Origin: Emticicia sp. BO119 | GTDB taxonomy: Bacteria; Bacteroidota; Bacteroidia; Cytophagales; Spirosomataceae | Direction: 5' to 3' | DNA length: 64,000 bases | Assembly: GCF_013912375.1 (NCBI RefSeq) | Contig: NZ_JACETV010000014.1 | Coordinates: forward strand, 1-64,000 | Shown: in pieces, positions 5,938 through 45,485 of the stretch | Numbering within the stretch: position 1 is the first letter of the stretch | Layout of the letters: every line of letters starts with the position of its first letter | Position numbers and translations under genes: made by a program | Notes under the pieces: generated by a model | Told to the model about the DNA's origin: nothing | The model's input: only the letters and a program-made list of their open reading frames with translations | The model's database searches: none

Positions 5938-6151
5938 TGTTTGTTAAATAGTATTCCTGCTTTATTTTATCTTCTATCATATCTTAAAAGAGATAAGATA
6001 AACCATATTAGTATAAATCACTGCACTAAATCAAAAACAACTCACTCTTCATTTTTATACCATTCACCTTTAGGTTTTGGCTATTCATTCCCCAAAGTTT
6101 TGCAGTTCACTTAGTTTTTTGATAATTTGTTTGAAAAACCTATCTACCGAA

Positions 6152-6922
6152 ATGAATGCCATCATTATTGAAGATGAAAAGATTGTTGCCAGAGAATTGT
6201 GTATAAAAATTGCCAAGACAAATCCTGAAGTAAAAATCCTTGACATACTGCCAAGTGTCAAGACTGCTATTAATTGGTTTGTCGCAAATGCTGAACCTGA
6301 TGTAGTTTTTGCAGATATTCAGTTGGCTGACGGTGTAAGTTTTGAGATTTTTGAGAGATTTAAACTTAGTTGCCCTATTATTTTCATTACTTCTTATAAT
6401 GAATTTGCCATTCGTGCTTTTAAGGTCAACGGAATTGACTATTTATTAAAACCCGTAGAACCTGTTGATTTGCAAAATGCCATTGAAAAGGCAAAAAGCA
6501 TCAATCAGAAGCAAACCAAAACACCCATTGATATGAATAAATTGATGGAAATGCTCCAGACAGGCAATGTACCAAAACCTGCTTATAAAGAGCATTTTCT
6601 ATGCAACCATCGTAATGCCTGGATATTGGTAAAAACCAAAGACATTGCCTATTTCTATTATGAAATGGTAGTTCATATTGTTACAAAAACTAATGAAAAA
6701 TTTAGCTTAGATAATACAATGGAAGAAATTGAGACTACGCTTGACCCTGACCTTTTCTATAGAGTCAACCGGCAATACATTGTTAATATAGATATTATTC
6801 AGAAGGTCTGGGGGTTAGAAAACCTGAAATTAATGGTGAAACTGAAAGATCCTCATCAATCTACTGAGATAGACATCAGCCGCCAGAAAGCACCTCTTTT
6901 CAAGAAATGGTTAGAGAAATAA
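6152..6922 (+). CDS. LytTR-family response regulator
   Basis: This 256-residue cytoplasmic regulator has an N-terminal receiver domain (about 1-115) and a C-terminal LytTR DNA-binding domain (about 155-250). Receiver acidic residues are in IIIEDEK, and the phosphoacceptor Asp is in DVVFADIQLADG. The switch Thr/Ser lies in IIFITSY, and the conserved Lys is in YLLKPVEP. The LytTR domain shows TKDIAYFYYEMVVHIVTKTNEKFSL and FYRVNRQYIVNIDII. The ATG at 6152 is preferred because the in-frame extension to 6077 has no domain content. It is followed 35 nt later by its likely partner kinase, forming an AlgR/LytR-type pair. Targets are unknown. Confidence 0.92.
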   Translation: MNAIIIEDEKIVARELCIKIAKTNPEVKILDILPSVKTAINWFVANAEPDVVFADIQLADGVSFEIFERFKLSCPIIFITSYNEFAIRAFKVNGIDYLLKPVEPVDLQNAIEKAKSINQKQTKTPIDMNKLMEMLQTGNVPKPAYKEHFLCNHRNAWILVKTKDIAYFYYEMVVHIVTKTNEKFSLDNTMEEIETTLDPDLFYRVNRQYIVNIDIIQKVWGLENLKLMVKLKDPHQSTEIDISRQKAPLFKKWLEK

Positions 6923-6957
6923 AACACGTATAGAGACTCATGGATATGCCATTCAGC

Positions 6958-9900
6958 ATGAATAATGAAAAATTCAGTATCAATAGAAGACGCATCTATA
7001 TTTATATATTTAGTTTATTCCTCTCTTTGCAATTTAGCTTTGCTCAACGTTTACCATTTACTTTCAATCAGGTTAAAATATCAGATAATAGTCTTGAAAA
7101 CAGGATTTATTGTATGCTCAAAGATCGAAGCGGTTATCTATGGCTTGGCACTGCAAGCGGGCTTAAGAGGTACGATTCAGAACTGACCATTACACTAAAA
7201 CATAAAAGAAATGATGATAAATCACTAGTAAGCAACGGAGTGTTGGCTTTATGTGAAGATAATCAAGGGAGAATATGGGTAGGCACGGGTGAAGGTATCT
7301 GTTATTTTGATAAGCAAAAAAACCAGTTTATTACCATTAAAGAGTTGAACAAACCTGATTATGCGTGCTTTAATATTGTCTGCGATTCGAGGGGAGATAT
7401 ATGGTTTACAATACGTGACCGGGGTTTGTTTAAGTTTGATTCACGTACCAGTAAGTTGCAAAATTTCAGACACATCGAAGGCAATAACAAAACGATAAGC
7501 TCTAGCAGGATTATCCAGAACGGATTGATTGAGGCTCCTGATAAAAAAGGGTTATGGATTATCTGTAATAATGATTATAGCTTAAATTATTTAGATTTTT
7601 CGAGCCAGAAAATATTCAACCGTGGTTTTAACCCTACCAATATTCCGATTTTTGAAATTAAGACTCCTTCGGCAATAACTATTAATCAAAACAAAATCGT
7701 ATTTGTCAACAACGATACGCAGGAAATTGTCTGGTATGATACACAAAATAAGAAAATAGCAAAGAGTTTCAAGCTCAGTAGCGACTGGTCGTTTTTGTTT
7801 GAAATTGAAAATATTTTTTTTGATGCAAATCAGAACCTTTGGCTAGGCTCATTTAATAATCGAATAGCCTATATTGACTTTGGGAAAAATCAGACCACTG
7901 AGATTAAATACGAGAAAGGAAATAATAACTCTATTACAGCTAATCGTCTATTTGATATTTTGCAGGAAAAAAATGGTACTATCTGGCTTGCTACTTTAAA
8001 TGGTGTTTCAACAATAAATGGGCTATCGGCGCTTTATCCGAACAAAAAAGCCTTTGATATTTTTGATTTTTCGAATGCTTTTTTTAAAAATGATGAAAAG
8101 AATGGCTTAATGTGTCTTGTTGAAGACTCCAGAGATAGTTCGTGGTGGATAGAAACCAGTGATAATCGTCTGATTAATTATGAACCTGAAACAAATCAAT
8201 CAACCACAATTCAAATACCGGAGAACAAAAAATACCTAAACTATGATATACCCATTGCGCTACATGATTATCAGCAAAAGCTACTTGTTGTAAAGCCTTA
8301 TGAAATTTTTCAATTTGAAAAAAAGACAAAGCAATTTGAAAAAGTAAAAATGCCCGCATTGATTTTGTACGGTGTAAGCTACTCTATTTCTCATACAAAT
8401 CTTATGGGTGATTCCTTGTGGGTTTTTCTGATGGGGAAAAAGATTTATAAAACGCTTAATTATCATCTGAAAACAAAAACCTGGAAAGAGTATCCCATTA
8501 TATTCAGTAGAGGTGCCGAACTGAAAAATACTGATAAATATGTTGCTCCTAATTTCTCCTTATATAGCAAGAGTGACGAGTTCTGGATTGCTATTCATTC
8601 AGGTGGTTTAGCAAAATTTTCGAAAGAAAAGCAAGCTTTTGAGGTGGTAAAAACCAAGCAGGATATTGATTTCACAAAGATTGGATATACGGGCTTTGTA
8701 GAAGATAAAAATGGCAAATTCTGGCTTGGCAGCTACGACTTAATCAAATTTGACCCGAAAACGTATGATTTCCAGACAGCGCTCGATATGGATTTAATTG
8801 ACGGCGTATCTATTGATGACCATGATAATCTGTGTGTGACATCACTTGATAATATTCTCTATTACAATGAAAAAACAGGGGAGAAATTTACGTTTAATTT
8901 TCAAACCAACGATTTATTTTCGGAGTGGGGAAACAGACTAACTGTGCTTAAAAATAAAAAAATAGTTTCCACCTATAAGCAAATGGCCGTTTTACTTAAT
9001 TTTAAGCGCTTTAAGCTACCTTCTTTCAAAGATCAATTATTCTTCAACCGCGTCTCAACCGCAGATACTTCTATCGTTATTTATAAAAATAATTCGCAAG
9101 TCAACTTTAATGCTAACCAGAATTCATTTTATATTTATTTTGGTATACTCACCCCTCCTAATAATGGTAATTATGAAATGTCTTATCAGCTGGAAGGTTA
9201 TGATAAAAGCTGGGTTTTGGATAAAGAAGGCAAAAAGATGGCCGTCTACGGGCATTTGGATGGTGGAGATTATTTGTTTAAAATTAGAGCTAAAGACATC
9301 AATCAGAATTATCTACCTATTCAGACACTCAGGATTCATATAGATACGCTTTTCTACCGAACCCTTTGGTTTAAAGTATTATGTGTTTTTGCCGGTATTC
9401 TTATGATCATTTCGTTTTTCCGCTACCGGACTAATCACCGAAAGAAGATTCATCATTTACAGATTCAATCAACCCGTTTAGAAAAAGATAAGACCGAAAT
9501 TCAGTACCAAAACCTGATTAATCACCTGAACCCGCATTTTCTGTTCAATAGCCTTACGTCGTTGAATGGCTTTATTTTATCAGAGCCTGATGTGGCTTCT
9601 GATTTCCTACAAAAGTTATCGTCTATCTATCGATATATTTTACAGAATAAAGATACTGAAACGGTTAGTTTAGGTCAGGAATTAGCTTTTGTAAAAAACT
9701 ATGTTAATCTTCAGAAATCGCGTTTTGAGGAGGGGTTACAGGTAAATATTGTTATTGAGGATAAGTATATGCTCAATGGTATTGTACCTGTGACGCTTCA
9801 GAATCTTTTTGAGAACGCCATTAAACATAATACCATTGAGGAGGATAAACCACTGGTGATTGACGTTTTTATTCAGGGCGAACAATTGATAGTAAAGAAT

Positions 9901-10103: not shown

Positions 10104-11009
10104 TTATTGGCCAATAGCGATTAAAGAAAAGGATTGATTGCCAAATGAAATTTCTCCAGCTGTTAAATTACAAAACTGAATTTGGCCACCAGCAGCAGTA
10201 ACATTCACAATACTTTTAATAAGATTTAAACCAGACTGAGTTGGTGCAAGGGATTGTCCAAGAAACACCGCCGGAGCCACTGTAAATTGATTACTCGGGA
10301 AACTGAAACTTATCGTACTACAAGTATTAGACCCTATATAAAAATCTCTATTTGATGTGGAAGAGGCAAATGTATACATCTGCAATTGGTTTGCATTTGA
10401 GTTTGTTAAAATTCCTTTTCCTTCTATTGTCAAATTTTCTGCATAGCTTACATCTCCTTCTACTCTCAGTTTTTCTGTATTAGTAGTAGCGCCTATACAT
10501 ATATTGCCACCATATTTTATCAGCATTTTTGTTACTCCCTGACCCCGAAATTCAAATCTATCTGCTGCATCAAAGTTAAAAAGAGTCCAGGTGACTTCGT
10601 CAGTTGAACTTATAATGTCAATCCTCCGGTTTACTATTTCTAATTTTTCAGTGGGTGTACTTGTATTTATTCCTATTCTCCCTTCTACTAATAAAGTATT
10701 GAATCTTGCTCTACTTAAAACGTCAAGCTCATCTAAAGGAGAGTTTTTGCTGATTCCAACTTTTCCCATATAATATATATCCGCATTGCCCTCCCAATAA
10801 GTTGTTATACTCTTCTCAAGCAAATCATCTCCGCAGTATTTAACTGTATTTGTGGGAGTATGATAATAAACTTTACCTGCCTCCCATTGAGGACAAGCAG
10901 TATCTAAATTTTTGGACAATCTGAAAACTTCAGGCTGAACAACTGTAGACTGTGCTGCTAATTCTTGCGAAAAAATTAATATGCAGAAAATTAATAGTTT
11001 TGATTTCAT
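10104..11009 (-). CDS. secreted tail-fibre-like repeat protein, copy 1
   Basis: This 301-residue protein has a signal peptide (MKSKLLIFCILIFSQELAAQ) and is presumably exported. After a Cys-containing N-terminal region (DTACPQWEAGKVYYHTPTN) it carries the short motif seen in phage tail-fibre and Bacteroidota surface proteins: GKVGISKNSPLDELDV and GRIGINTSTPTEKLEIV. A stretch on loss of order (DEVTWTLFNFDAADRFEFR) and a beta-rich Cys-bearing C-terminus follow. It lies 41 nt downstream of a clear paralogue (11051-11974) in the same orientation, so the two probably arose by tandem duplication and share a transcript. No catalytic residues are recognised. A structural or adhesive surface role is inference. 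Confidence 0.7.
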   Translation of the reverse strand: MKSKLLIFCILIFSQELAAQSTVVQPEVFRLSKNLDTACPQWEAGKVYYHTPTNTVKYCGDDLLEKSITTYWEGNADIYYMGKVGISKNSPLDELDVLSRARFNTLLVEGRIGINTSTPTEKLEIVNRRIDIISSTDEVTWTLFNFDAADRFEFRGQGVTKMLIKYGGNICIGATTNTEKLRVEGDVSYAENLTIEGKGILTNSNANQLQMYTFASSTSNRDFYIGSNTCSTISFSFPSNQFTVAPAVFLGQSLAPTQSGLNLIKSIVNVTAAGGQIQFCNLTAGEISFGNQSFSLIAIGQ

Positions 11010-11050
11010 GAACTATAGATTTTATACGTAATAGGTGAATTAAAAAACAT

Positions 11051-36507: not shown

Positions 36508-36715
36508 GGGGGGTCGTAAGAATGATTTGGTTAGAAAAGCAAAAACATACCAATTTAAGTTATAATTTTTTAGTTTTATCAGATTCTATCATTTTTTAAT
36601 ATTTTTTTTAATGAATTACGAATGAAAATGTTATCAAACGGACACATTTCTTACCTAAATGCAATTTGAACTATTCTTATAAATGTACAGTTTAATTGTT
36701 AAAACAAACAATGTA

Positions 36716-37411
36716 ATGACAAATAAACCTATTCAGATAGATATAGTTTCTGATGTAGCCTGCCCCTGGTGCTATATTGGTAAAAAACATTTAGAGAAAG
36801 CTTTGGAAGGCATAGAAAATCAAGACTTTCAGGTTACCTGGCATCCATTTCAATTAGACCCTACAATCCCGCAGGAAGGCTTACCTCGTGAAGAGTATTT
36901 TGCTAATAAATTCGGGAGTGCCGAGCGCATTCAGCAAATGCACCAAAGAGTAGAGGGAGTAGGCAAAAAAGCAGGGATTCAGTTTGAATTTGAGAAAATG
37001 CCAAAGGTTATTAATACCATTCCGTTACATAAAATATTACACGTGGCAAGAGAAGAAGGTATGCAAAATGATCTGGAAGAAAAATTCTTCAAAGCCTATT
37101 TTACTGATGGTGTTGATTTTTCAAATAAAGAAAATATAGTAGCCTTTATGGAAGATTTCGGCTGGACTCGTGAAAAAACCGAGGATATTTTAGCCGACGA
37201 CCAGATTAGTTACTGGGTAACACAGGAAATCAGGCATTTTCAGAATTTAGGTGTTTCAGGTGTGCCTTTTTTTATTCTGAATAATAAATATGGTTTAAGC
37301 GGAGCACAACCTACAGAAGTATTTCTGGATGCCTTGGCAAAAGTAGCAGAAGAAATGAAACCTGTTGAAGTAACCGGTGATGCCTGTGAAATTGACAGGA
37401 AAAACTGTTAA
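36716..37411 (+). CDS. FrnE-like DsbA-family oxidoreductase
   Basis: This thioredoxin-fold protein of about 231 residues has the redox motif CPWC near residue 15 (SDVACPWCYIGKKHLEKAL). Later cis-Pro region GVSGVPFFILNNKYGLSGAQPTE is typical of the FrnE/2-hydroxychromene-2-carboxylate isomerase branch of the DsbA family. There is no signal peptide, so it is cytoplasmic. FrnE homologues act as oxidoreductases in stress resistance or antibiotic synthesis. The ATG at 36716 (MTNKPIQIDIV) is preferred over 36683, which adds unconserved residues. It sits just upstream of the lasso-peptide locus but is separated from it by a very strong terminator, so it is probably unrelated. Confidence 0.85.
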   Translation: MTNKPIQIDIVSDVACPWCYIGKKHLEKALEGIENQDFQVTWHPFQLDPTIPQEGLPREEYFANKFGSAERIQQMHQRVEGVGKKAGIQFEFEKMPKVINTIPLHKILHVAREEGMQNDLEEKFFKAYFTDGVDFSNKENIVAFMEDFGWTREKTEDILADDQISYWVTQEIRHFQNLGVSGVPFFILNNKYGLSGAQPTEVFLDALAKVAEEMKPVEVTGDACEIDRKNC

Positions 37412-37526: not shown

Positions 37527-37534
37527 TAACTTTG
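37527..37534 (+). promoter_or_regulatory. -7 element of lasso module 1
   Basis: TAACTTTG matches TAnnTTTG and lies 22 nt before the ATG at 37556. The surrounding TATTTTAATAACTTTGA closely matches the module 2 promoter (TATTTTAATATCTTTGA), so the promoter was duplicated with the gene. The -33 region is poor. Confidence 0.5.
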
Positions 37535-37555
37535 AAGGAACAAAACAACTTTGGC

Positions 37556-37834
37556 ATGATGAACAACTCCTTAGCACAGATTATTCAACGAAAAGATGAA
37601 AATATAGTGGTTACGAATTTGGGTAACGAAATGGTAATGATGAATCTGGAAAGCGGTAATTATATAACCCTGAATAATTTAGGTAGTATTATATGGGAAA
37701 AAATAAAAGAACCCATAAAGGTAAGTGATTTGATTAATTACTTACTTTCAAAATATAAAGTAACAGAATCGCAGTGCAAAGAAGAGACTTTTATTTTTCT
37801 TGAAAAATTGAAAGCAGAAGGATTAATAGACTGA
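37556..37834 (+). CDS. lasso peptide RRE protein B1 (PqqD-like), module 1
   Basis: This small PqqD-fold protein of about 92 residues is expected to bind the leader of the lasso precursor (RiPP recognition element) and present it to the B2 peptidase. Typical features are the beta segment NEMVMMNLESGNYITLNNLGSIIWEKI and the helical KVSDLINYLLSKYKVTESQCKEET, ending in LKAEGLID. The ATG at 37556 is used because an extension to the TTG at 37532 overlaps the -7 promoter element. The cyclase gene starts 34 nt downstream, so both are one transcript. It shares a 100-bp identical DNA patch with the damaged module 2 copy (40123-40400). As the only undamaged B1 it probably serves both precursors. Confidence 0.85.
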   Translation: MMNNSLAQIIQRKDENIVVTNLGNEMVMMNLESGNYITLNNLGSIIWEKIKEPIKVSDLINYLLSKYKVTESQCKEETFIFLEKLKAEGLID

Positions 37835-37868
37835 GACCTGTTAGTATATAACCTTAGAACCGATAAAT

Positions 37869-39755
37869 ATGAGTTTGATATTTGGCCTTGTTAAATACGA
37901 CGATGACAAGATTGATGAAAGTCTTTTACAGGCCATGTACAAACCACTAAAAGATTTTCCTCAGGTAAGATATGACAAAATAAGTACCCATGAGGCATCA
38001 TTCGGAAAAATACTGAATTATGGAACACCCGAAGATATGTTTGACTCTCAACCTGTTTATCTGAGCGAACATAATAGGCTTTTTACGGCACAGGGGCGCA
38101 TAGACAATAGAGATGAATTGGCGAAGGTTTTAGGCATGAATGCCCATGATACTGTCTCTGACAGTTATTTCATATTACAGGCCTATTTAAAATATGGAGA
38201 AGAGGTACAGCATAAACTTAAGGGAGAATGGAGTCTGGCGGTTTATAATTACAATACAAAAGAGTTATTTCTGGCTCGCGATACACAGGGTTATACAGTC
38301 TTGTATTTTTATAAGACCGATAAATACTTTTCTTTCAGCACATCTCTTAAATCTATTCTGTCTTTGCCTGTTTTTAAAAAAGAATTAAACGAAGAATACT
38401 TTGTTTCTGCCCTGAATTTGTGGAAAGTAAGAGAGAAATTTGCCAGTAATGAAACATTCTATAAGAATGTTTTTTATCTCCAAGGCGGATGTCTGCTAAA
38501 ATTTAAAAATAGAGAATTTACCATTAAGCAATACTGGCCGCCTGAAAATATAAGGGAGACCTATTATAAAAATAAACAGGACTATGCAGACGAAATGTCT
38601 GACCTTATCTATAAAGCTGTAGACAGGCGATTGCGGAGTTATAAACCTGTAGCATCTATGCTTAGTGGGGGGCTGGATAGCAGTATGGTAAGTTATATAG
38701 CTGCTGACTTGCTAAAAAAACATAATAAAACCCTTACTACTTACAGCCATGTGCCTTTGTATAAACAAGCACTTTTAAACGACCCGATGGCGCAAAAACG
38801 AGTGCTTGATGAAACCCCGTTTATTGAAGCAACGGTAAGGGCATCGGGTAATATTAATTCTCAATATTTATATTCTGAGCGTATTTCACCTGTACAGGGG
38901 TCTTCTGAAAGCCTTGATGTGCTCGACGGCTTTATACACGGAGCCGGAAATGCCTATTGGTTGACAGACATTTATAAAACCTGTGCACAACAGAGTTATG
39001 GCACTTTGCTAACCGGAGAGGGTGGCAACGGCTCTACTTCTTTCTCAGCCATCGATTACAGACAAGCCCATAGTATCCGGAGGTTCATCAGAAACCCCAT
39101 CAACTATTTAAGGAGGCAGGTAGCCAAACCATTGGTTTTGAAATACTTCAGTACAGTTTCTGTTTTTAATACTTTCGAAAAGAGCATTAAAGCCGGATAC
39201 ACCAATGCCCGAATACTGGATAGATACCAGATAATGAAAGATGTCCGGAACAAAAATGAGGGTTTTCTACCATATTATCATCATGTGCTGGAATCAAAAA
39301 AGAACTTTATGACTTATTATCATTTAAGAAGTGTTTTAGGAGCCTCATTTGGAAATTATTATGGGATAGAATTAAGAGACCCAACCACCGATATTGATGT
39401 GATGAACTTTTTCCTGACAATACCCAATGATGTTTTTTTTGATGACAATTTCAATAACAGAATGCTTGTAAAAAGAATGATGCGCAATAAAATGCCCGAT
39501 GAAGTATTATTTGCCAGGAAAAAGGGACTTCAGAGCTCGGATCTCATTTTCAGAGTACGAAATTCAAAAGAAGAACTATTAAATGAACTATCCGGCCTTA
39601 AAAACTCATCTCTGGTTATGGATTATATAGATATGGACAAACTGGAGAATAACCTGAGAATGTATCTTGATAATGACAGCATGCAAACAACCGATAGTGT
39701 ACATCTTGTTATAAAAACAATGCAGGCTGCCCGTTTTTTGCAGAAGAATTTTTAA
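37869..39755 (+). CDS. lasso peptide macrolactam synthetase C (asparagine synthetase-like), module 1
   Basis: This 628-residue ATP-dependent cyclase is expected to adenylate the Asp8 side chain of the core peptide and join it to the free N-terminus. The N-terminal glutamine-amidotransferase-like domain (about 1-200) is degenerate: residue 2 is Ser (MSLIFG), not the catalytic Cys of true asparagine synthetases, so it should not use glutamine. The C-terminal synthetase domain has the PP-loop SMLSGGLDSSMVSYIAADLL (about 263) and LLTGEGGNGSTSFSAIDY. ELRDPTTDIDVMNFFLTIPN and LFARKKGLQSSDL are conserved in its duplicate. It follows B1 by 34 nt and is convergent with precursor A1 downstream. Confidence 0.88.
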   Translation: MSLIFGLVKYDDDKIDESLLQAMYKPLKDFPQVRYDKISTHEASFGKILNYGTPEDMFDSQPVYLSEHNRLFTAQGRIDNRDELAKVLGMNAHDTVSDSYFILQAYLKYGEEVQHKLKGEWSLAVYNYNTKELFLARDTQGYTVLYFYKTDKYFSFSTSLKSILSLPVFKKELNEEYFVSALNLWKVREKFASNETFYKNVFYLQGGCLLKFKNREFTIKQYWPPENIRETYYKNKQDYADEMSDLIYKAVDRRLRSYKPVASMLSGGLDSSMVSYIAADLLKKHNKTLTTYSHVPLYKQALLNDPMAQKRVLDETPFIEATVRASGNINSQYLYSERISPVQGSSESLDVLDGFIHGAGNAYWLTDIYKTCAQQSYGTLLTGEGGNGSTSFSAIDYRQAHSIRRFIRNPINYLRRQVAKPLVLKYFSTVSVFNTFEKSIKAGYTNARILDRYQIMKDVRNKNEGFLPYYHHVLESKKNFMTYYHLRSVLGASFGNYYGIELRDPTTDIDVMNFFLTIPNDVFFDDNFNNRMLVKRMMRNKMPDEVLFARKKGLQSSDLIFRVRNSKEELLNELSGLKNSSLVMDYIDMDKLENNLRMYLDNDSMQTTDSVHLVIKTMQAARFLQKNF

Positions 39756-39775
39756 TGGTATAGAAACACACAATA

Positions 39776-39801
39776 AAAGCCGGGCTATATAACCCGACTT
39801 T
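39776..39801. terminator. hairpin between cyclase 1 and precursor A1
   Basis: AAAGcCGGG (39776-39784) pairs with CCCGaCTTT (39793-39801), with one mispair and an 8-nt loop, between the converging cyclase and precursor genes. Confidence 0.6.
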
Positions 39802-39820
39802 CAAAGTTTTAATACGGGGT

Positions 39821-39967
39821 TTATGATAAAATACCCGCATCAGTAGCACCAGGCCCACCGGCAAGGGTTGTATCTTTTACAGAGAAAATCTCCACTTCAG
39901 GAGTATTCCACTCTAATTTGATTTGCTCATTACCAATTATTGCTTCTGAGTTGTTCTGGTTTTCCAT
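39821..39967 (-). CDS. lasso peptide precursor A1
   Basis: This 48-residue precursor (start MENQNNSEAI) was found by reading the minus strand. The leader contains KLEWNTPEVEIFSVKDTTL. Trp20, Pro23 and Val25 fit the YxxPxL motif that binds the RRE, with Trp in place of Tyr. Thr34 is the penultimate leader residue, as required by lasso peptidases. The predicted core is AGGPGATDAGILS (13 residues), with Asp8 as the ring acceptor and a five-residue tail. The second precursor aligns without gaps up to Asp8, including the identical EWN, SVKD and TL parts. It is convergent with cyclase 1. The exact cleavage site is inferred from the Thr -2 rule; cleavage one residue earlier would give a 9-residue ring. 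Confidence 0.82.
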   Translation of the reverse strand: MENQNNSEAIIGNEQIKLEWNTPEVEIFSVKDTTLAGGPGATDAGILS

Positions 39968-40000
39968 AAATTGCTAAAAGATTAAAGGTGATTAATAATG

Positions 40001-40031
40001 CAAAGAAAAAGATTTTTAAATATCAAGCAAA
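40001..40031 (-). promoter_or_regulatory. promoter of precursor A1
   Basis: On the minus strand TTTCTTTG (40008-40001) is one base off the TAnnTTTG consensus, and TTTG (40031-40028) lies 19 nt upstream as a -33 element. Transcription would start about 30 nt before the precursor ATG at 39967, so A1 should be transcribed independently of the B1-C operons. Confidence 0.45.
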
Positions 40032-40076
40032 AATTTAATCGGAAAATGCCGTCAACACTTTAAATTGCTCAGTTTG

Positions 40077-40106
40077 TTTGCCTTCTATAATATTTTAATA
40101 TCTTTG
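40077..40106 (+). promoter_or_regulatory. promoter of lasso module 2
   Basis: -33 TTTG (40077-40080) and -7 TATCTTTG (40099-40106) are 18 nt apart, a good Bacteroidota promoter, 16 nt before the ATG at 40123. It parallels the module 1 promoter in sequence. Confidence 0.6.
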
Positions 40107-40122
40107 ATAAGACTTAAAAGCC

Positions 40123-40400
40123 ATGACTGATTTTTCCAAAGCAACCATTTTAAACGAAAAGACAAGAATATCCTGATTACCGGATTAGGTAACGAAATGG
40201 TAATGATGAATCTGGAAAGCGGTAATTATATAACCCTGAATAATTTAGGTAGTATTATATGGGAAAAAATAAAAGAACCCATAAAGGAAAGTGATTTGAT
40301 TAATTACTTACTTTCAAAATATAAATTAACAGAATCTCAGCGCAAAGAAGAGACTCTTATTTGTCTTGAAAAACTGAATGCTGAAAACTTACTGGCCTGA
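40123..40400 (+). pseudogene. lasso peptide RRE protein B1, module 2, 1-base frameshift
   Basis: From the ATG at 40123 the frame reads MTDFSKATIL like the intact module 1 B1, then meets a stop (TGA at 40174-40176). Adding one A in the AAA at 40152-40154 restores ILKRKDKNILITGLGNEMVMMN, matching IIQRKDENIVVTNLGNEMVMMN of copy 1 and giving a full-length protein of about 91 residues ending NAENLLA. An internal ATG at 40197 could start a 67-residue version (MVMMNLESGNYITL) lacking the first beta-strands. So the gene is either broken, N-terminally truncated, or affected by a sequencing error. The C-terminal part has no other damage and is 99% identical to copy 1 over about 138 bp. Cyclase 2 follows 37 nt later. 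Confidence 0.75.
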
Positions 40401-40437
40401 AACTTACTCCTAACAACACTTCTAAAGCTAAAAACAT

Positions 40438-42324
40438 ATGAGTTTAATCTTTGGCATTGTAAAGCACAACGATAATCAGAATGATGAGGGGTTATTACAG
40501 AAAATGTACACACCTTTAAAAAACTTTCCTCAAGTACGATTTGACAAAATAAGTATTCAGGAAGCATCATTCGGAAAAATACTGAATTATGGTACACCTG
40601 AAGATATATTTGACTCTCAACCCGTTTATCTTAGCGAACAAAATATACTTTTTACTGCATTAGGACGTCTTGACAACAGAGAAGTACTATCTGAAGATTT
40701 AGGTCTGAAAGAAAATGAGGCTGTTTCAGATACTTATTTTATGCTCCAGGCTTATTTAAAATATGGAGAAGAAGTGCAGCATAAACTTAAGGGAGAGTGG
40801 AATCTGGTAGTTTATAATTATAATACAAAAGAGCTGTTTATTACCCGTGACACAATGGGATATACTGCGTTGTACTTTTATAATACTGATAAATATTTCG
40901 CTTTCAGCACATCCGTTAAATCAATACTCGCCTTACCTTATTTTAAAAAAGAATTAAATGAAGAGTACTTTGTTTCAGCCCTGACCTTATGGAAAATCGA
41001 TGATAAGTTTTTTGGAAATGAGACTTTCTATAAAAATATTTTCTTCCTGAAAGGGGGGCATTCAATAAAACAAAAGAATGGAGAGATAAATATTAACAAA
41101 TATTGGCCGCCTGAAAACATCAAAGAAGTTCGTTATAAAAATAAGCAGGACTATGCTGACCAAATGTCTGAACTGATGTATAAAGCCGTAAAAGTACGGC
41201 TACGAAGTTATAAACCAGTGTCAGCAACGCTAAGTGGTGGTTTAGACAGCAGTATGGTTGCTTATATAGCCGCAGATTTATTAAAGCAACAAGGCAAAAC
41301 TCTGACTACCCACAGCCATGTGCCTTTATTTAAACAAGAGCTCTTAAACACTCCGTTTGCGAGTAAAGTGCTAATTGACGAAACTCCGTTTATCGAGGCT
41401 ACTGCAAGAGCATCGGGTAACATTAATCCAAAGTATTTAAATTCTGAAAGTACTTCACCCGGAAAAGGTATGATAGAAATCATGGACGTTCTGGATGGAT
41501 TTATACATGCGGCATGGAATGCTTATTGGGTGCTGGATATATATAGAACCTGTGCCCAAAAAGGTTATGGAGTAGTACTAACAGGAGAAGGTGGCAATGG
41601 TTCAACCTCGTTTTCAGCTGTTGACTATTTGTTGCCACACAACCTTCAAAGATTCATCAAACAACCTGTTTCTTATTTAAAAAGGCAGATAGCTAAACAA
41701 TTTGTTACAAAATATTTCAATGCCCGCCCAAAGTTTAATCCATTGATTGATTATATAGCTAACGGTTATGTTAATTCTGAAGTCCTTAGTAAGTATTCTA
41801 TTAATGTAGAGATTAAAAAGAATAATAATGGCCTTCTGAAATACTATAAAAATGTCTTAGAATTAAAAAAGCAGTTTATTAATATGTATCATCTCAGGGG
41901 ATTATTTGGCAAGTCATTCGGGAGTTATTATGGTATAGAATTAAGAGACCCAACTGTGGATATTGATGTAATGAATTTTTTTCTGGCAATACCCAATGAT
42001 GTTTTTTTCGATGATGACTACAATGGTAGAATGCTTGTAAAAATGATGATGAAAAACAAGACCCCAGACGAGGTACTATATGCAAGAAAAAAGGGATTAC
42101 AAAGCTCAGACATTTTTTTTAGAGCCCAAAAATCAAAAGAAGAGTTTTTCGAGGAGTTATCTTATTTTAAAAACAGCAACCTGGTAGACAGCCTTATTAA
42201 TATTAATAAAATAGAAAATAATCTAAACCTGTATTTTAATACTGACAATATAGAATCACCAGAAAAGATTCAGTTATTACTTAAAAACATACAAGCAGCT
42301 TCTTTCTTAAGAAGCCGTTTTTAG
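40438..42324 (+). CDS. lasso peptide macrolactam synthetase C (asparagine synthetase-like), module 2
   Basis: This 628-residue paralogue has exactly the same length as the module 1 cyclase. It has the same Ser2 in place of the glutaminase Cys, the PP-loop ATLSGGLDSSMVAYIAADLL, LTGEGGNGSTSFSAVDY, ELRDPTVDIDVMNFFLAIPN and YARKKGLQSSDIFF. Divergence is concentrated around 340-480 (for example NSESTSPGKGMIEIMDVLDG against YSERISPVQGSSESLDVLDG), which may reflect adaptation to a different core. It probably closes the Leu1-Asp8 ring of precursor A2, encoded convergently downstream. All catalytic motifs are intact, so this module appears to be functional except for its B1. Confidence 0.88.
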   Translation: MSLIFGIVKHNDNQNDEGLLQKMYTPLKNFPQVRFDKISIQEASFGKILNYGTPEDIFDSQPVYLSEQNILFTALGRLDNREVLSEDLGLKENEAVSDTYFMLQAYLKYGEEVQHKLKGEWNLVVYNYNTKELFITRDTMGYTALYFYNTDKYFAFSTSVKSILALPYFKKELNEEYFVSALTLWKIDDKFFGNETFYKNIFFLKGGHSIKQKNGEININKYWPPENIKEVRYKNKQDYADQMSELMYKAVKVRLRSYKPVSATLSGGLDSSMVAYIAADLLKQQGKTLTTHSHVPLFKQELLNTPFASKVLIDETPFIEATARASGNINPKYLNSESTSPGKGMIEIMDVLDGFIHAAWNAYWVLDIYRTCAQKGYGVVLTGEGGNGSTSFSAVDYLLPHNLQRFIKQPVSYLKRQIAKQFVTKYFNARPKFNPLIDYIANGYVNSEVLSKYSINVEIKKNNNGLLKYYKNVLELKKQFINMYHLRGLFGKSFGSYYGIELRDPTVDIDVMNFFLAIPNDVFFDDDYNGRMLVKMMMKNKTPDEVLYARKKGLQSSDIFFRAQKSKEEFFEELSYFKNSNLVDSLININKIENNLNLYFNTDNIESPEKIQLLLKNIQAASFLRSRF

Positions 42325-42341
42325 AGTCTATGATAGAAACA

Positions 42342-42413
42342 AACAAAGCCTTCTGAGGAAGTTAATAAAGTATTGATTTACTTGCGTTATTAACTTCCTC
42401 AGAAGGCTTTGTT
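42342..42413. terminator. long hairpin, 27-bp perfect arms, between cyclase 2 and precursor A2
   Basis: Arms at 42342-42368 and 42387-42413 are perfectly complementary (core GCCTTCTGAGGAAGTTAATA, with AACAAA outside), with an 18-nt loop. It lies 18 nt after the cyclase 2 stop and between convergent genes, so it probably terminates both. It is longer than a normal terminator. Confidence 0.7.
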
Positions 42414-42497
42414 GAACAATGATTTAAACATTCTCTAACAACAAAGACCAGAACCCAATCTTATATTAAATCTGAGAGAATACTGCGAAGAGTTAAA

Positions 42498-42653
42498 TTA
42501 AGAAGCAGTTGCAATTATAATTAAGTCTCCTCCAACCCCAAGACCGAGTAATGTTTTGTCTTTTACAGAGAAAACTTCTGCTTCTGGTTTGTTCCACTCT
42601 AATTTAACTTGTTGATCAAGAATTAGTTCTTCGGAGGTAAGTTCTTTTGCCAT
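42498..42653 (-). CDS. lasso peptide precursor A2
   Basis: This 51-residue precursor (start MAKELTSEEL) was found on the minus strand. The leader has KLEWNKPEAEVFSVKDKTL, with Trp20, Pro23 and the penultimate Thr34 in the same positions as A1. The predicted core is LGLGVGGDLIIIATAS (16 residues), giving an 8-residue ring between Leu1 and Asp8, and an unusually hydrophobic tail (LIIIATAS) with no bulky aromatic plug. Leu1 with Asp8 has precedent in citrulassin-type lasso peptides, as I recall. The gene precedes B2 on the same strand in map order, with B2 upstream of it in transcription, so the two could be cotranscribed across a 331-nt gap. Confidence 0.82.
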   Translation of the reverse strand: MAKELTSEELILDQQVKLEWNKPEAEVFSVKDKTLLGLGVGGDLIIIATAS

Positions 42654-42984
42654 AATAAAAAGAGGTTATTTTTTCAGTTACAGTTTCCTTTAAATAAAGT
42701 AACGGTTTTTCTTTATTTAATGCAATAAAAAACCTGTTTTCTTATTATACGGATACATTTACTTTAAGATAACTCTCTTAAAATAAACAAATTAGATTGG
42801 CAAAGCTGACTTTGATGGTTTCTCTTAACACAATTGAACTACTTCATTCATCACATTAATAGAATCTTCAAGATTAGTCATAGCTATTTATTTCATTGAA
42901 AAGCCTTTATTTTGGTCTACTAAATTTCGCTTTTTGAGAAAGATTTCATTCTCTGCATCAGAATTAAAATTTTTGAAAAAAGCA
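42654..42984. other. gap between precursor A2 and B2
   Basis: There is no supported gene in this AT-rich stretch. An 18-codon minus-strand frame (42825-42881, MTNLEDSINVMNEVVQLC) shows no lasso leader motif. A third precursor was looked for by the conserved SVKD/EWN codons and not found. No clear TAnnTTTG promoter for A2 is visible; a weak one could lie near 42690-42730. Confidence 0.5.
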
Positions 42985-43404
42985 CTAACTATAAAAGCTA
43001 CTCAGCACTGTATATAACTCAGTATGTTTGCCCCCTGTAATTATCTCTTCATTACAGATAAGCCAGGCATGTGCCAATAATTCTTTTTCTGGTGCTTCTT
43101 TTCTTACACCAAAATAAATCGTACTTTTTTTATTTCTCAATTTAAGCATTAATTTGGCACATAGTGCCTGTTCAAAGCATGCTGTGCGCCAGAAAGAATA
43201 CCGGCAGGCTCTTGTAATGGCCCTACTTATATGCTTAAAATGATTTTCATTTTTGTATGTGTTTTCATGAATTGCAACACGAGTGCCCAATAATGGCAAA
43301 ATCTTTGAAAAAGGCACAAAAACAAGTATTAACCTTGATATAGCAATAAAAATCCAGGCTTCGGAAAAAAGCAGGAAATCTTTTATAGTAATTTGTTTTA
43401 TCAT
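42985..43404 (-). CDS. lasso peptide leader peptidase B2 (transglutaminase-like)
   Basis: This 139-residue cysteine protease of the lasso B2 family cuts the leader from the core with help from the RRE protein. The catalytic Cys is in WRTACFEQALCAKLML (about residue 78), and the His is in KELLAHAWLICNEE (about residue 113). The region IYFGVRKE before it, ITGGKHTELYTVLSSF after it, and the hydrophobic N-terminus (LLFSEAWIFIAISRLILVFVP) are typical of B2 proteins. It is the only B2 in the window and must serve both modules if both are active. It lies 23 nt after the M13 peptidase gene on the same strand, so it may be transcribed with it. Confidence 0.85.
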   Translation of the reverse strand: MIKQITIKDFLLFSEAWIFIAISRLILVFVPFSKILPLLGTRVAIHENTYKNENHFKHISRAITRACRYSFWRTACFEQALCAKLMLKLRNKKSTIYFGVRKEAPEKELLAHAWLICNEEIITGGKHTELYTVLSSFYS

Positions 43405-43427: not shown

Positions 43428-45485
43428 TTACCAGATTCTCACCCTTTTCTCAGGGGCACGATACATTTTATCGCCTGGTTTTATATTAAAAGCTTCATAA
43501 AATTCATCCATATTCACAATCGGGCCATTCACACGAAGAAAGTTTGGGGCGTGTACGTCTGTCATGATTCTATTAGCTAAGGCTTCGTCGCGCGTATGCC
43601 CCATCCAAGCCAAAGCCCATCCTAAGAAATAGCGTTGAAGGGGTGTAAAACCGTTGATTTTCTTACCTGATTTATATTGCTCGGTTTTCTTGAAAGCCTC
43701 CAAGCCTAAAATCACACCGCCCAAATCAGCAATATTTTCTCCTTGGGTAGCCTCACCTCTTACATACATAGAATCTAAAACTACATAGTTATCAAACTGC
43801 TCAATGATTCCTTTTGCTCTTTTATTGTATTCTTCCCCATCTTTCTTTGTCCACCAGTCAGTCAGATTACCTTTTTCGTCGAACTGTCTGCCCTGGTCGT
43901 CAAAGCCGTGTGTAATCTCATGCCCGATGGTTGAGCCCCCGGCATAGGCATAAATAATAGCATCATCTAATTGCTCATCTGTAAAACCCGCTACAAAGAA
44001 AATAGCCGCAGGCAATACGATTTCATTATTTGATGGATTATAGTAGGCATTATAAGTCTGTGGAGTCATACCCCATTCTGTTTTATCAACAGGCTTACCA
44101 ATCTTATTAGTCTCATACAAATACCACCATTGATTGGCTCTGATGATGTTTTGTACATACGAATCTTTTTTGATGTCTAAAGACGAAAAATCTTTCCATT
44201 TATCAGGGTAGCTCACCTTAGGCATCACCGTCGAGAGTTTCAATAAAGCCTTTTTCTTGGTGCTGTCCGACATCCAGTCTAATTTTTCAATGCGCTCTTT
44301 ATAAGTACTGAATATATTCTTCACCAGTTCTTCGTATCGCTTTTTGGTTTTATCAGAATAGTAATTCTTTATAAAGAGCTGCCCTAAAGCATCTCCCAAC
44401 AAGCGTTCCTCAGCATCTAATACACGTTTCCAGCGAGGCTTCATTTCTTTTACCCCGCGCAAGATAGTTCTGTAAAAATGAAAGTCTTCTTTGGCAAACT
44501 GGCTACTTAATTCACTGGCATAATTACTGATAAAATTCCATGTCAGGTATGCTTTCCAGGTATCTATCGGCGTAGTTTTCAATAATTTATCAACGGCTGT
44601 ATAAAATTCAGGTTGGCCAACAATGGCACTTTTCACCTGTGGCATTTTCATCCTGACAAATAAATCTGTGAATTTCATTGAAGGTGATAACTTATCTAAT
44701 GCTGCCAGATCCATTTTATTGTAGTTCTTATAGGGATCTCTCAAAGCCTCTATCTTGCGGGAATTTTTGGCTAAAGTTTCTTCTAATGCATATACCCTTT
44801 CCATGTTTTTGGTAGCTGTGGCATCATCGTTACCTAACAACTTAAACATACGTTGTATATGCGCCTTGTATTCTTTACGGATATTGGTATTACGGCTATC
44901 TGTATTAAAATAATAATCTCTTTCTGGCAGACCTATACCTCCCTGATAAAGATGTAAAGCTTGCTCTTCACTATTTTTCTCATCCTGAAACACATAATTG
45001 CCAAACAGCGTACCCATACCATAGGTCTGTTGCAAAGCCACTTCGTTTAGCACACCTTGTAAATCTTTGATGGTGACAATACGGTCTAAATCTGATTTGA
45101 CAGGACTGAGTCCTTGTTTTTCAATACCCAGACTATCCATGCCTGTAAACCAGAAATCGCCAATTTTCTGCTCATTTGAGCCAATATTACCAGATTGTTT
45201 GGCTGATTCTTCATTAATGGTTCTTAAACGCCCATAGGTTTCTTCCTGTACCATACTGCCGATACCCCAGCTACTTTCGGAAGCAGGGATAGGGTTCTTT
45301 TTCAACCAGTTACCGACGGCATATTTAAAAAAATCATCCTTAGGCGATACAGTAGTATCCACCACTTCTTTAAGAATATCTCTTTGGGCAGATTCGGAAG
45401 AGTTCGATTGACAGGAAGTAAGGGAAATTCCGGAAACTAATAAAATGCCCGATAGCAAAACTTTAGGTAAAGTAAGAGCTTGCAT
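43428..45485 (-). CDS. M13-family (neprilysin-like) zinc metallopeptidase, lipoprotein
   Basis: This 685-residue periplasmic or surface endopeptidase has a lipoprotein signal (LLSGILLVSGISLTSC, lipobox Cys near residue 25). The zinc site is STIGHEITHGFDDQGRQFD (HExxH) with the third ligand in GENIADLGGV. The substrate-binding NAYYNPSNNEIVLPAAI and the C-terminal MYRAPEKRVRIW are diagnostic of M13. The N-terminal half (about 40-400) is the M13_N helical domain. The length is normal. In other bacteria, M13 enzymes cleave small secreted peptides. The gene sits directly upstream of lasso B2 (23 nt), but related genes are common elsewhere in Bacteroidota and a lasso role is only a possibility. Confidence 0.93.
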   Translation of the reverse strand: MQALTLPKVLLSGILLVSGISLTSCQSNSSESAQRDILKEVVDTTVSPKDDFFKYAVGNWLKKNPIPASESSWGIGSMVQEETYGRLRTINEESAKQSGNIGSNEQKIGDFWFTGMDSLGIEKQGLSPVKSDLDRIVTIKDLQGVLNEVALQQTYGMGTLFGNYVFQDEKNSEEQALHLYQGGIGLPERDYYFNTDSRNTNIRKEYKAHIQRMFKLLGNDDATATKNMERVYALEETLAKNSRKIEALRDPYKNYNKMDLAALDKLSPSMKFTDLFVRMKMPQVKSAIVGQPEFYTAVDKLLKTTPIDTWKAYLTWNFISNYASELSSQFAKEDFHFYRTILRGVKEMKPRWKRVLDAEERLLGDALGQLFIKNYYSDKTKKRYEELVKNIFSTYKERIEKLDWMSDSTKKKALLKLSTVMPKVSYPDKWKDFSSLDIKKDSYVQNIIRANQWWYLYETNKIGKPVDKTEWGMTPQTYNAYYNPSNNEIVLPAAIFFVAGFTDEQLDDAIIYAYAGGSTIGHEITHGFDDQGRQFDEKGNLTDWWTKKDGEEYNKRAKGIIEQFDNYVVLDSMYVRGEATQGENIADLGGVILGLEAFKKTEQYKSGKKINGFTPLQRYFLGWALAWMGHTRDEALANRIMTDVHAPNFLRVNGPIVNMDEFYEAFNIKPGDKMYRAPEKRVRIW

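Follow-up and report, generated by a model that had tools for sequence, protein, structure and literature searches.

The 64,000-nucleotide window analysed here (Emticicia sp. BO119, contig NZ_JACETV010000014.1, positions 1 to 64,000; contig C6 of the 6.57-Mb genome) very probably carries, at 37532-43404, a lasso-peptide cluster in which a block of leader-binding protein, macrolactam synthetase and precursor (B1-C-A) has been tandemly duplicated and acts with one leader peptidase (B2) in the manner proposed below. The gene order between the flanking genes is B1a+, C1+, A1-, B1b+, C2+, A2-, B2-, the signs giving the strands. The features are as follows.

37532-37834, + strand: B1a, PqqD-like leader-binding protein (RRE); NF033536 over its cut-off, PF05402, solved chains
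37616-37790, + strand: approximate gene-conversion tract in B1a, partner of about 40182-40355 in B1b
37869-39755, + strand: C1, putative lasso-type macrolactam synthetase; NF033535 the best NCBIfam model, tree, M-S start, SGGLDS
39821-39967, - strand: A1, precursor with leader ...WNTPEV...TL and core AGGPGATDAGILS (13 aa); leave-out model, motif positions
40123-40400, + strand: B1b, frame-broken second B1 with a 67-aa reading frame from 40197; one base missing relative to B1a
40438-42324, + strand: C2, putative lasso-type macrolactam synthetase; NF033535 the best NCBIfam model, tree, model fold
42498-42653, - strand: A2, precursor with leader ...WNKPEA...TL and core LGLGVGGDLIIIATAS (16 aa); leave-out model, motif positions
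42985-43404, - strand: B2, transglutaminase-like leader peptidase; NF033537 over its cut-off, PF13471, Cys and His kept

B1a, C1, C2, B2, A1 and A2 are intact open reading frames (ORFs). B1a and B2 scored above the curated lasso cut-offs and a model built only from relatives' precursors recovered both A1 and A2, in agreement with the lasso-peptide identity given in a preliminary description of this DNA. The two short minus-strand precursor-like genes and the minus-strand B2 gene named there are present, and of its two plus-strand B1-C modules both C genes and B1a were found in place; the second B1, however, is not an intact copy. Of the five proteins that it proposed to search with lasso profiles, B1a and B2 exceeded the respective cut-offs, and B1b, C1 and C2 scored under them.

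The biosynthetic proteins

B1a reached 82.9 bits on NF033536 (cut-off 80), matching from profile position 3, and an E-value of 6.1e-16 against PF05402. In-frame ATG codons at 37556 and 37559 are possible start codons, and one of these two is probably the true start. The closest PDB chains by sequence were those of lasso B1 proteins, 9x90_B (2.2e-15), TbiB1 (5v1u, 9.5e-6) and TfuB1 (6jx3, 0.0013). B1a is thus a relative of these proteins in sequence, but a divergent one, and they serve other pathways. In a sample of 200 genomes of the family Spirosomataceae, 105 had a match to NF033536 at E <=0.001, and three exceeded the cut-off, namely the window's genome, G072 and G099.

The 139-residue protein previously proposed as the lasso B2 scored 84.7 bits on NF033537 (cut-off 33) and 2.1e-20 against PF13471. 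Cys76 and His112 were invariant across 11 aligned B2 proteins, in which no third, acidic residue behind the His was invariant, and a PDB sequence search with B2 gave no match at E up to 1. B2 was said to be single; there is one within the cluster, but a second B2-like gene lies elsewhere in the genome (contig C3:24933-25181). A stretch read from contig C3 (L030) holds at 7733-8206 a lone B2-like gene with 46.2 bits on NF033537 (cut-off 33); the surrounding 17 kb that were read contained nothing matching B1, C or the precursors of the window.

C1 and C2 consist of 628 residues each, are 66% identical and both contain SGGLDSS. In the tree they were sisters (100/99), joined at 100/100 by the C genes of two loci from another genus of the same family, L098 (genome G072) and L099 (G099), each of which holds C, B1, B2 and precursors together. 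The tree was built from 28 hand-chosen sequences of 61 C-like ORFs, some of those not chosen being truncated versions of the same genes. It included 7 of the 10 proteins starting with MCGI. All seven lay on a separate side from C1 and C2 (100/100). Furthermore, C1 and C2 begin with M-S, not M-C, and the catalytic Cys after the start Met is absent. On the basis of the M-S start and the tree split, we rejected asparagine synthetase as the identity of C1 and C2. A grouping with glutamine-dependent asparagine synthetases, which would have refuted the preliminary description, was not seen with respect to the seven MCGI-type proteins.

That both C proteins should be ordinary amidotransferases of the glutamine-dependent kind, such as asparagine synthetase or one of its relatives, and stand by chance beside RRE and protease genes is extremely improbable. 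Such enzymes would explain the fold, which is common to asparagine synthetase and the hydroxyamidotransferase TsnB9, and the significant TIGR01536 matches (8e-45 for C1 and 2e-46 for C2), but they agree neither with the Ser at the position of the Cys nor with the tree split. In addition, NF033535 gave 256.7 bits for C1 (4.7e-76) and 252.7 bits for C2 (7.7e-75), as opposed to 153.8 and 159.1 bits for TIGR01536, the next NCBIfam model. An AlphaFold model of C2 (mean pLDDT 65.8, 5 sequences) matched TsnB9, asparagine synthetase and beta-lactam synthetase in fold, which supports an asparagine/beta-lactam-synthetase fold, not the reaction; there was no lasso cyclase among the 50 fold matches listed for this middling model. 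The five matches of a PDB sequence search with C2 were a hydroxyamidotransferase and asparagine synthetases. A profile search of the genome contigs found no relative with C2 alone and three with a 4-row alignment, one of them in Spirosomataceae.

Precursors and the proposed pathway

A leave-out hidden Markov model (HMM) of 12 relatives' precursors, from which the window was excluded, ranked A1 (1.5e-12) and A2 (1.8e-10) first and second among the window's 1739 stop-to-stop stretches of 20 aa or more. The third stretch reached 8.5 bits (E 0.13), and the maximum over ten mononucleotide shuffles of the window was 8.0 bits. The leader motifs of A1 and A2 are alike: WNTPEV and WNKPEA fit the motif [Y/W]xxPx[L/V/I/A/F/Y] (PMC13381572), and Thr precedes Leu in both. 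When the Thr of TL or TM before the core was set to -2, Trp(-16) and Pro(-13) were present in all 14 precursors counted (2 from the window, 8 from L098, 3 from L099 and 1 from L026). An acid occupied core position 8 in 13 of them and position 9 in the other one, further acids being present in L026, and the last residue was Ser in 12 of the 14, including both window cores. A Thr at -2, Asp or Glu at core positions 7-9 and phosphorylation of a C-terminal Ser are described in PMC10368454. Two L098 precursors with different or longer ends (10696-10842 and 10859-11014) were left out of two precursor alignments and kept in the leave-out HMM and the count of 14, and the precursor of a further locus, L024, was used in the broader precursor alignment and left out of both the leave-out HMM and the count of 14.

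Asp8 is the only acid in each window core, so the predicted rings are Ala1-Asp8 in A1 and Leu1-Asp8 in A2. A core that starts at residue 2 and forms a 7-residue ring is less likely, because the Thr would shift to -3, while the third precursor of L099 has Gly directly after TL together with Asp8. The window, L098 and L099 together have 13 precursors, of which 10 have a 13-residue core with Leu or Phe at the penultimate position. The A1 core AGGPGATDAGILS resembles AGGPGASDFGIFS from L099 and AGAVGVTDAGIFS from L098.

The families of the genes, the motifs of the precursors, the duplication, the conversion tract and the broken frame of B1b are read from the sequence, whereas we infer binding, cleavage, cyclisation, threading and phosphorylation, as well as the pairing of C proteins with precursors. 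B1a would bind W(-16)xxP(-13) of both leaders and pass the leaders to B2, which would cleave on the C-terminal side of Leu(-1), the residue that follows Thr(-2). With ATP, C1 or C2 would then activate the Asp8 side chain and link it to the amine of residue 1 (Ala1 in A1, Leu1 in A2); the ring would have 8 residues and the tail 5 (A1) or 8 (A2). After loss of one water, the calculated [M+H]+ is 1068.532 for the A1 core (1148.498 with one phosphate) and 1451.847 for the A2 core (1531.813 with one phosphate). An HPr-kinase-like enzyme whose gene lies elsewhere in the genome may phosphorylate the C-terminal Ser, which is conserved. A search with the L098 kinase matched contig C1:52367-53215 of the window's genome (9.3e-53, 38% identity) and, weakly, contig C27 (0.127), with no match on contig C6. 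The family roles of B1, B2 and C behind these steps are described in PMC13381572, PMC10368454 and PMC9266682, and in the case of paeninodin the kinase PadeK phosphorylates the C-terminal Ser of the precursor before maturation (PMC9266682).

The enzymes could also act as proposed and yield unthreaded lariats, a 5-residue tail being too short for an 8-residue ring, which we consider unlikely. The 13-residue cores, including that of A1, fall short of the 14-24 residues that a 2019 review states for lasso peptides (PMC6784204), and no more than ten residues follow TL in the precursor of L024, both of which would suit a lariat. However, the penultimate Leu or Phe of the 13-residue cores could plug the ring, phosphoserine could add bulk, and the A2 core has 16 residues. 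The smallest lasso peptide according to a 2022 paper, from Streptomyces huasconensis, has a Gly1-Asp7 macrocycle (PMC9784485). If the 13-residue cores were threaded as in a lasso peptide, they would lie below the quoted size range and test the minimum tail length.

Duplication, conversion and the state of B1b

A tandem copy of a B1-C-A unit fits the observed gene order and would account for each cyclase being followed by a precursor in the opposite orientation. Comparison of C1 and C2 gave 0.227 nonsynonymous (dN) and 2.198 synonymous (dS, saturated) substitutions per site; the dN/dS of about 0.10 points to an old duplication followed by purifying selection. For A1 and A2, dN was 0.391 and dS 1.545. 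The duplication with a single shared B2, as put forward in the preliminary description, is in line with the sister position of C1 and C2 and with the one B2 in the cluster, but not in full, as B1b is broken. The opposite-strand layout noted there also holds, with a precursor behind each cyclase, and is to be adjusted in that L098 and L099 share the division between strands: in these loci and in the window, B2 and the precursors lie on one strand, B2 first, and B1 and C on the other, so that in the window a B1-C unit faces an A-B2 unit. The strand with B2 and the precursors (eight in L098, three in L099) also carries an HPr-kinase-like gene in both relatives, and a nucleotidyltransferase gene lies behind C (PF14907 tested for L098).

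In the assembly analysed, B1b has one base fewer than B1a in the segment that leads from its ATG at 40123 to the conserved part, and the frame of this ATG stops after 17 codons. The B1-homologous frame has no ATG, GTG or TTG before 40197. The resulting 67-aa ORF scored 52.2 bits on NF033536, with a profile match only from position 22, and the whole open frame of 89 codons scored 60.2 bits, both under the cut-off of 80. B1b and B1a differ at nine sites in the shared part, where the commoner letter of seven relatives was found in B1a at five and in B1b at two. The changes in B1b include C82R (Cys in seven of seven relatives), V77L (Val in six of seven) and V64E (Val in three of seven).

Bins of 60 columns over the B1a/B1b tract showed 56, 59 and 56 identities, versus 27-53 in the bins starting at 37855 to 39673. 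Since about 175 bases (37616-37790) are near-identical between B1a and B1b while the flanks diverge, the tract is best explained by gene conversion that partly overwrote B1b. The B1 tails (67 codons) gave a dN of 0.072 and a dS of 0.108, a dN/dS of 0.67 that reflects few sites and counts changes on both copies. B1b is thus probably in decay, which would leave B1a to act on the two precursors, and B1a, together with B2, probably serves both cyclases.

Both B1 genes might instead work, each with its own C, if the break in B1b were a sequencing or assembly error or were bypassed by frameshifting or an unusual start. The 89 open codons and the conversion tract, which keeps B1b near B1a, would be consistent with this, but we regard it as doubtful in view of the nine differences from B1a, with a Cys kept in all seven relatives among them, and of a tail dN/dS much nearer to neutral than that of C1 and C2 (few sites).

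Several observations weigh against the reading of this locus as a working lasso-peptide cluster with a decaying B1b. C1 and C2 reach about half of the NF033535 cut-off (525), and this model also has matches, under the cut-off, in 9 of 14 control genomes. Since, in addition, no C protein exceeded the cut-off in any of the 200 family genomes, a match to NF033535 alone is weak evidence for a lasso cyclase. A1 and A2 scored 19.6 and 14.6 bits on NF033524, the paeninodin-family model (cut-off 27), for which membership in that family was rejected, and the window cores start with Ala or Leu. The L024 precursor aligns an acid to position 8 only with a gap and, when cut after TL, has acids at positions 4 and 7. 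Within the eight-member clade of C genes, precursors lie beside five (both window copies, L098, L099 and L005/L024), but none was found near the other three (L062, L006/L025 and L063) in the stretches read; adjacent precursors, whose general lack in homologues would have refuted the preliminary description, thus exist in the nearest homologues but not in all. For L062, genes for the kinase, B1 and B2 were seen kilobases farther downstream (L100). The window's gene list showed neither an exporter nor an immunity gene, the flanking genes not having been scanned against family libraries; judged by eye, we take these to be a DsbA/FrnE-like gene upstream (36683-37411) and an M13-type metallopeptidase gene downstream (43428-45485). 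Unlike L098 and L099, the window cluster has no adjoining kinase gene, and the broken B1b could mean that the whole cluster is decaying.

These last two points would fit a decaying relic that makes nothing, which is nevertheless quite improbable. Six of the seven genes are intact, the C1-C2 comparison with its saturated dS indicates constraint at a dN/dS of about 0.10, and both cores keep D8, T(-2) and the C-terminal Ser. The presence of two cyclases beside a single intact B1 and a single B2 offers a natural test of what determines the choice of core, the specificity of the cyclase or the recognition of the leader.

Relatives and known systems

We searched 390 Cytophagales genomes with the precursor model A6, which matched in four genomes at E <=0.001 (2 of 129 genera). 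Three of them, G000 (the window's genome), G072 and G099, had supplied the rows of the model, and G002 was the sole extra genome. A broader precursor model matched in six of the 200 family genomes at E <=0.001, five of which had given rows, the sixth being G205 (7.2e-4). The precursor family is rare or patchy, or the models reach near kin only. The array in L098 (10696-12929 in G072) places eight precursors beside one cyclase and includes two pairs of identical cores. Together with L099 (three precursors, one cyclase), it offers a ready panel of cores.

Paeninodin-type clusters (PadeA family, NF033524) resemble the window cluster in the WxxP leader, Thr(-2), separate B1 and B2 and the C-terminal Ser of the core. 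L098 and L099 also have an HPr-kinase-like gene, comparable to that of the kinase PadeK, whereas none lies beside the window cluster, which further differs in its sub-cut-off precursors, shorter cores and duplicated B1-C-A. The clusters of caulosegnins, caulonodins and xanthomonins, like the window cluster, have several precursors each (PMC7549694), but the window cluster differs from them by its duplicated cyclase and leader-binding genes and by an opposite-strand precursor behind each cyclase. Within the Bacteroidota, Amoebophilus asiaticus has a putative lasso cluster of four genes (Aasi_0899-Aasi_0902), upregulated late in the infection cycle (PMC8831229), which we set beside ours by its description only.

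Already known are lasso clusters including those of Bacteroidota (PMC8831229), multi-precursor clusters (PMC7549694, PMC13381572) and C-terminal phosphorylation. In the excerpts of the open-licence literature searched, we met neither a tandem B1-C-A duplication with one B2 nor 13-residue cores with an 8-residue ring; both the duplication and the shortness of the predicted products seem unusual. Bacteroidetes were named as an underexplored source of lasso peptides, with reference to a genome survey, in PMC7533575. Speculatively, and with low confidence, the precursors may belong to a Spirosomataceae family whose products, lasso or lariat peptides of 13 residues with an 8-residue ring, fall below the 14-24 range, are held closed by a C-terminal phosphoserine as plug and are encoded in arrays of up to eight precursors. 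The two cyclase copies of the window would then have become specialised, one for a core rich in A/G/P and the other for one rich in L/V/I, while using one B1 and one B2 in common.

A lasso-like locus with a sulfotransferase gene (PF00685) was observed in G006, of the same genus as the window's genome (L024, 4642-7524); the ten residues after TL in its precursor (FGADKGEFAS) are short for a usual lasso peptide.

The linear polyphosphorylated peptide (LPP) clusters of Bacillota have an RRE and the same type of leader motif as the window, but they combine an HprK kinase, an NTP transferase and another peptidase with no cyclase, as opposed to the two cyclases of the window (PMC13381572). Two further loci of the same genus, L097 (6571-10285 in G001) and L095 (5940-9222, contig C1 of the window's genome G000), contain an HPr-kinase-like gene, B1 and an NTP transferase. 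No cyclase was seen in the stretch read of either locus, and no NF033535 match was found in G001 at E <=0.001; these loci are closer to the LPP clusters than the window cluster is, although L097 has a B2. L095 gave no B2 match between B1 and the kinase gene, and its NTP transferase is split into two ORFs of 224 and 153 aa (5940-7106), compared to a single one of 388 aa in L097. L097 also carries, besides B2, three tandem short ORFs with WxxP leaders, whose ends share G.NLLDPH.

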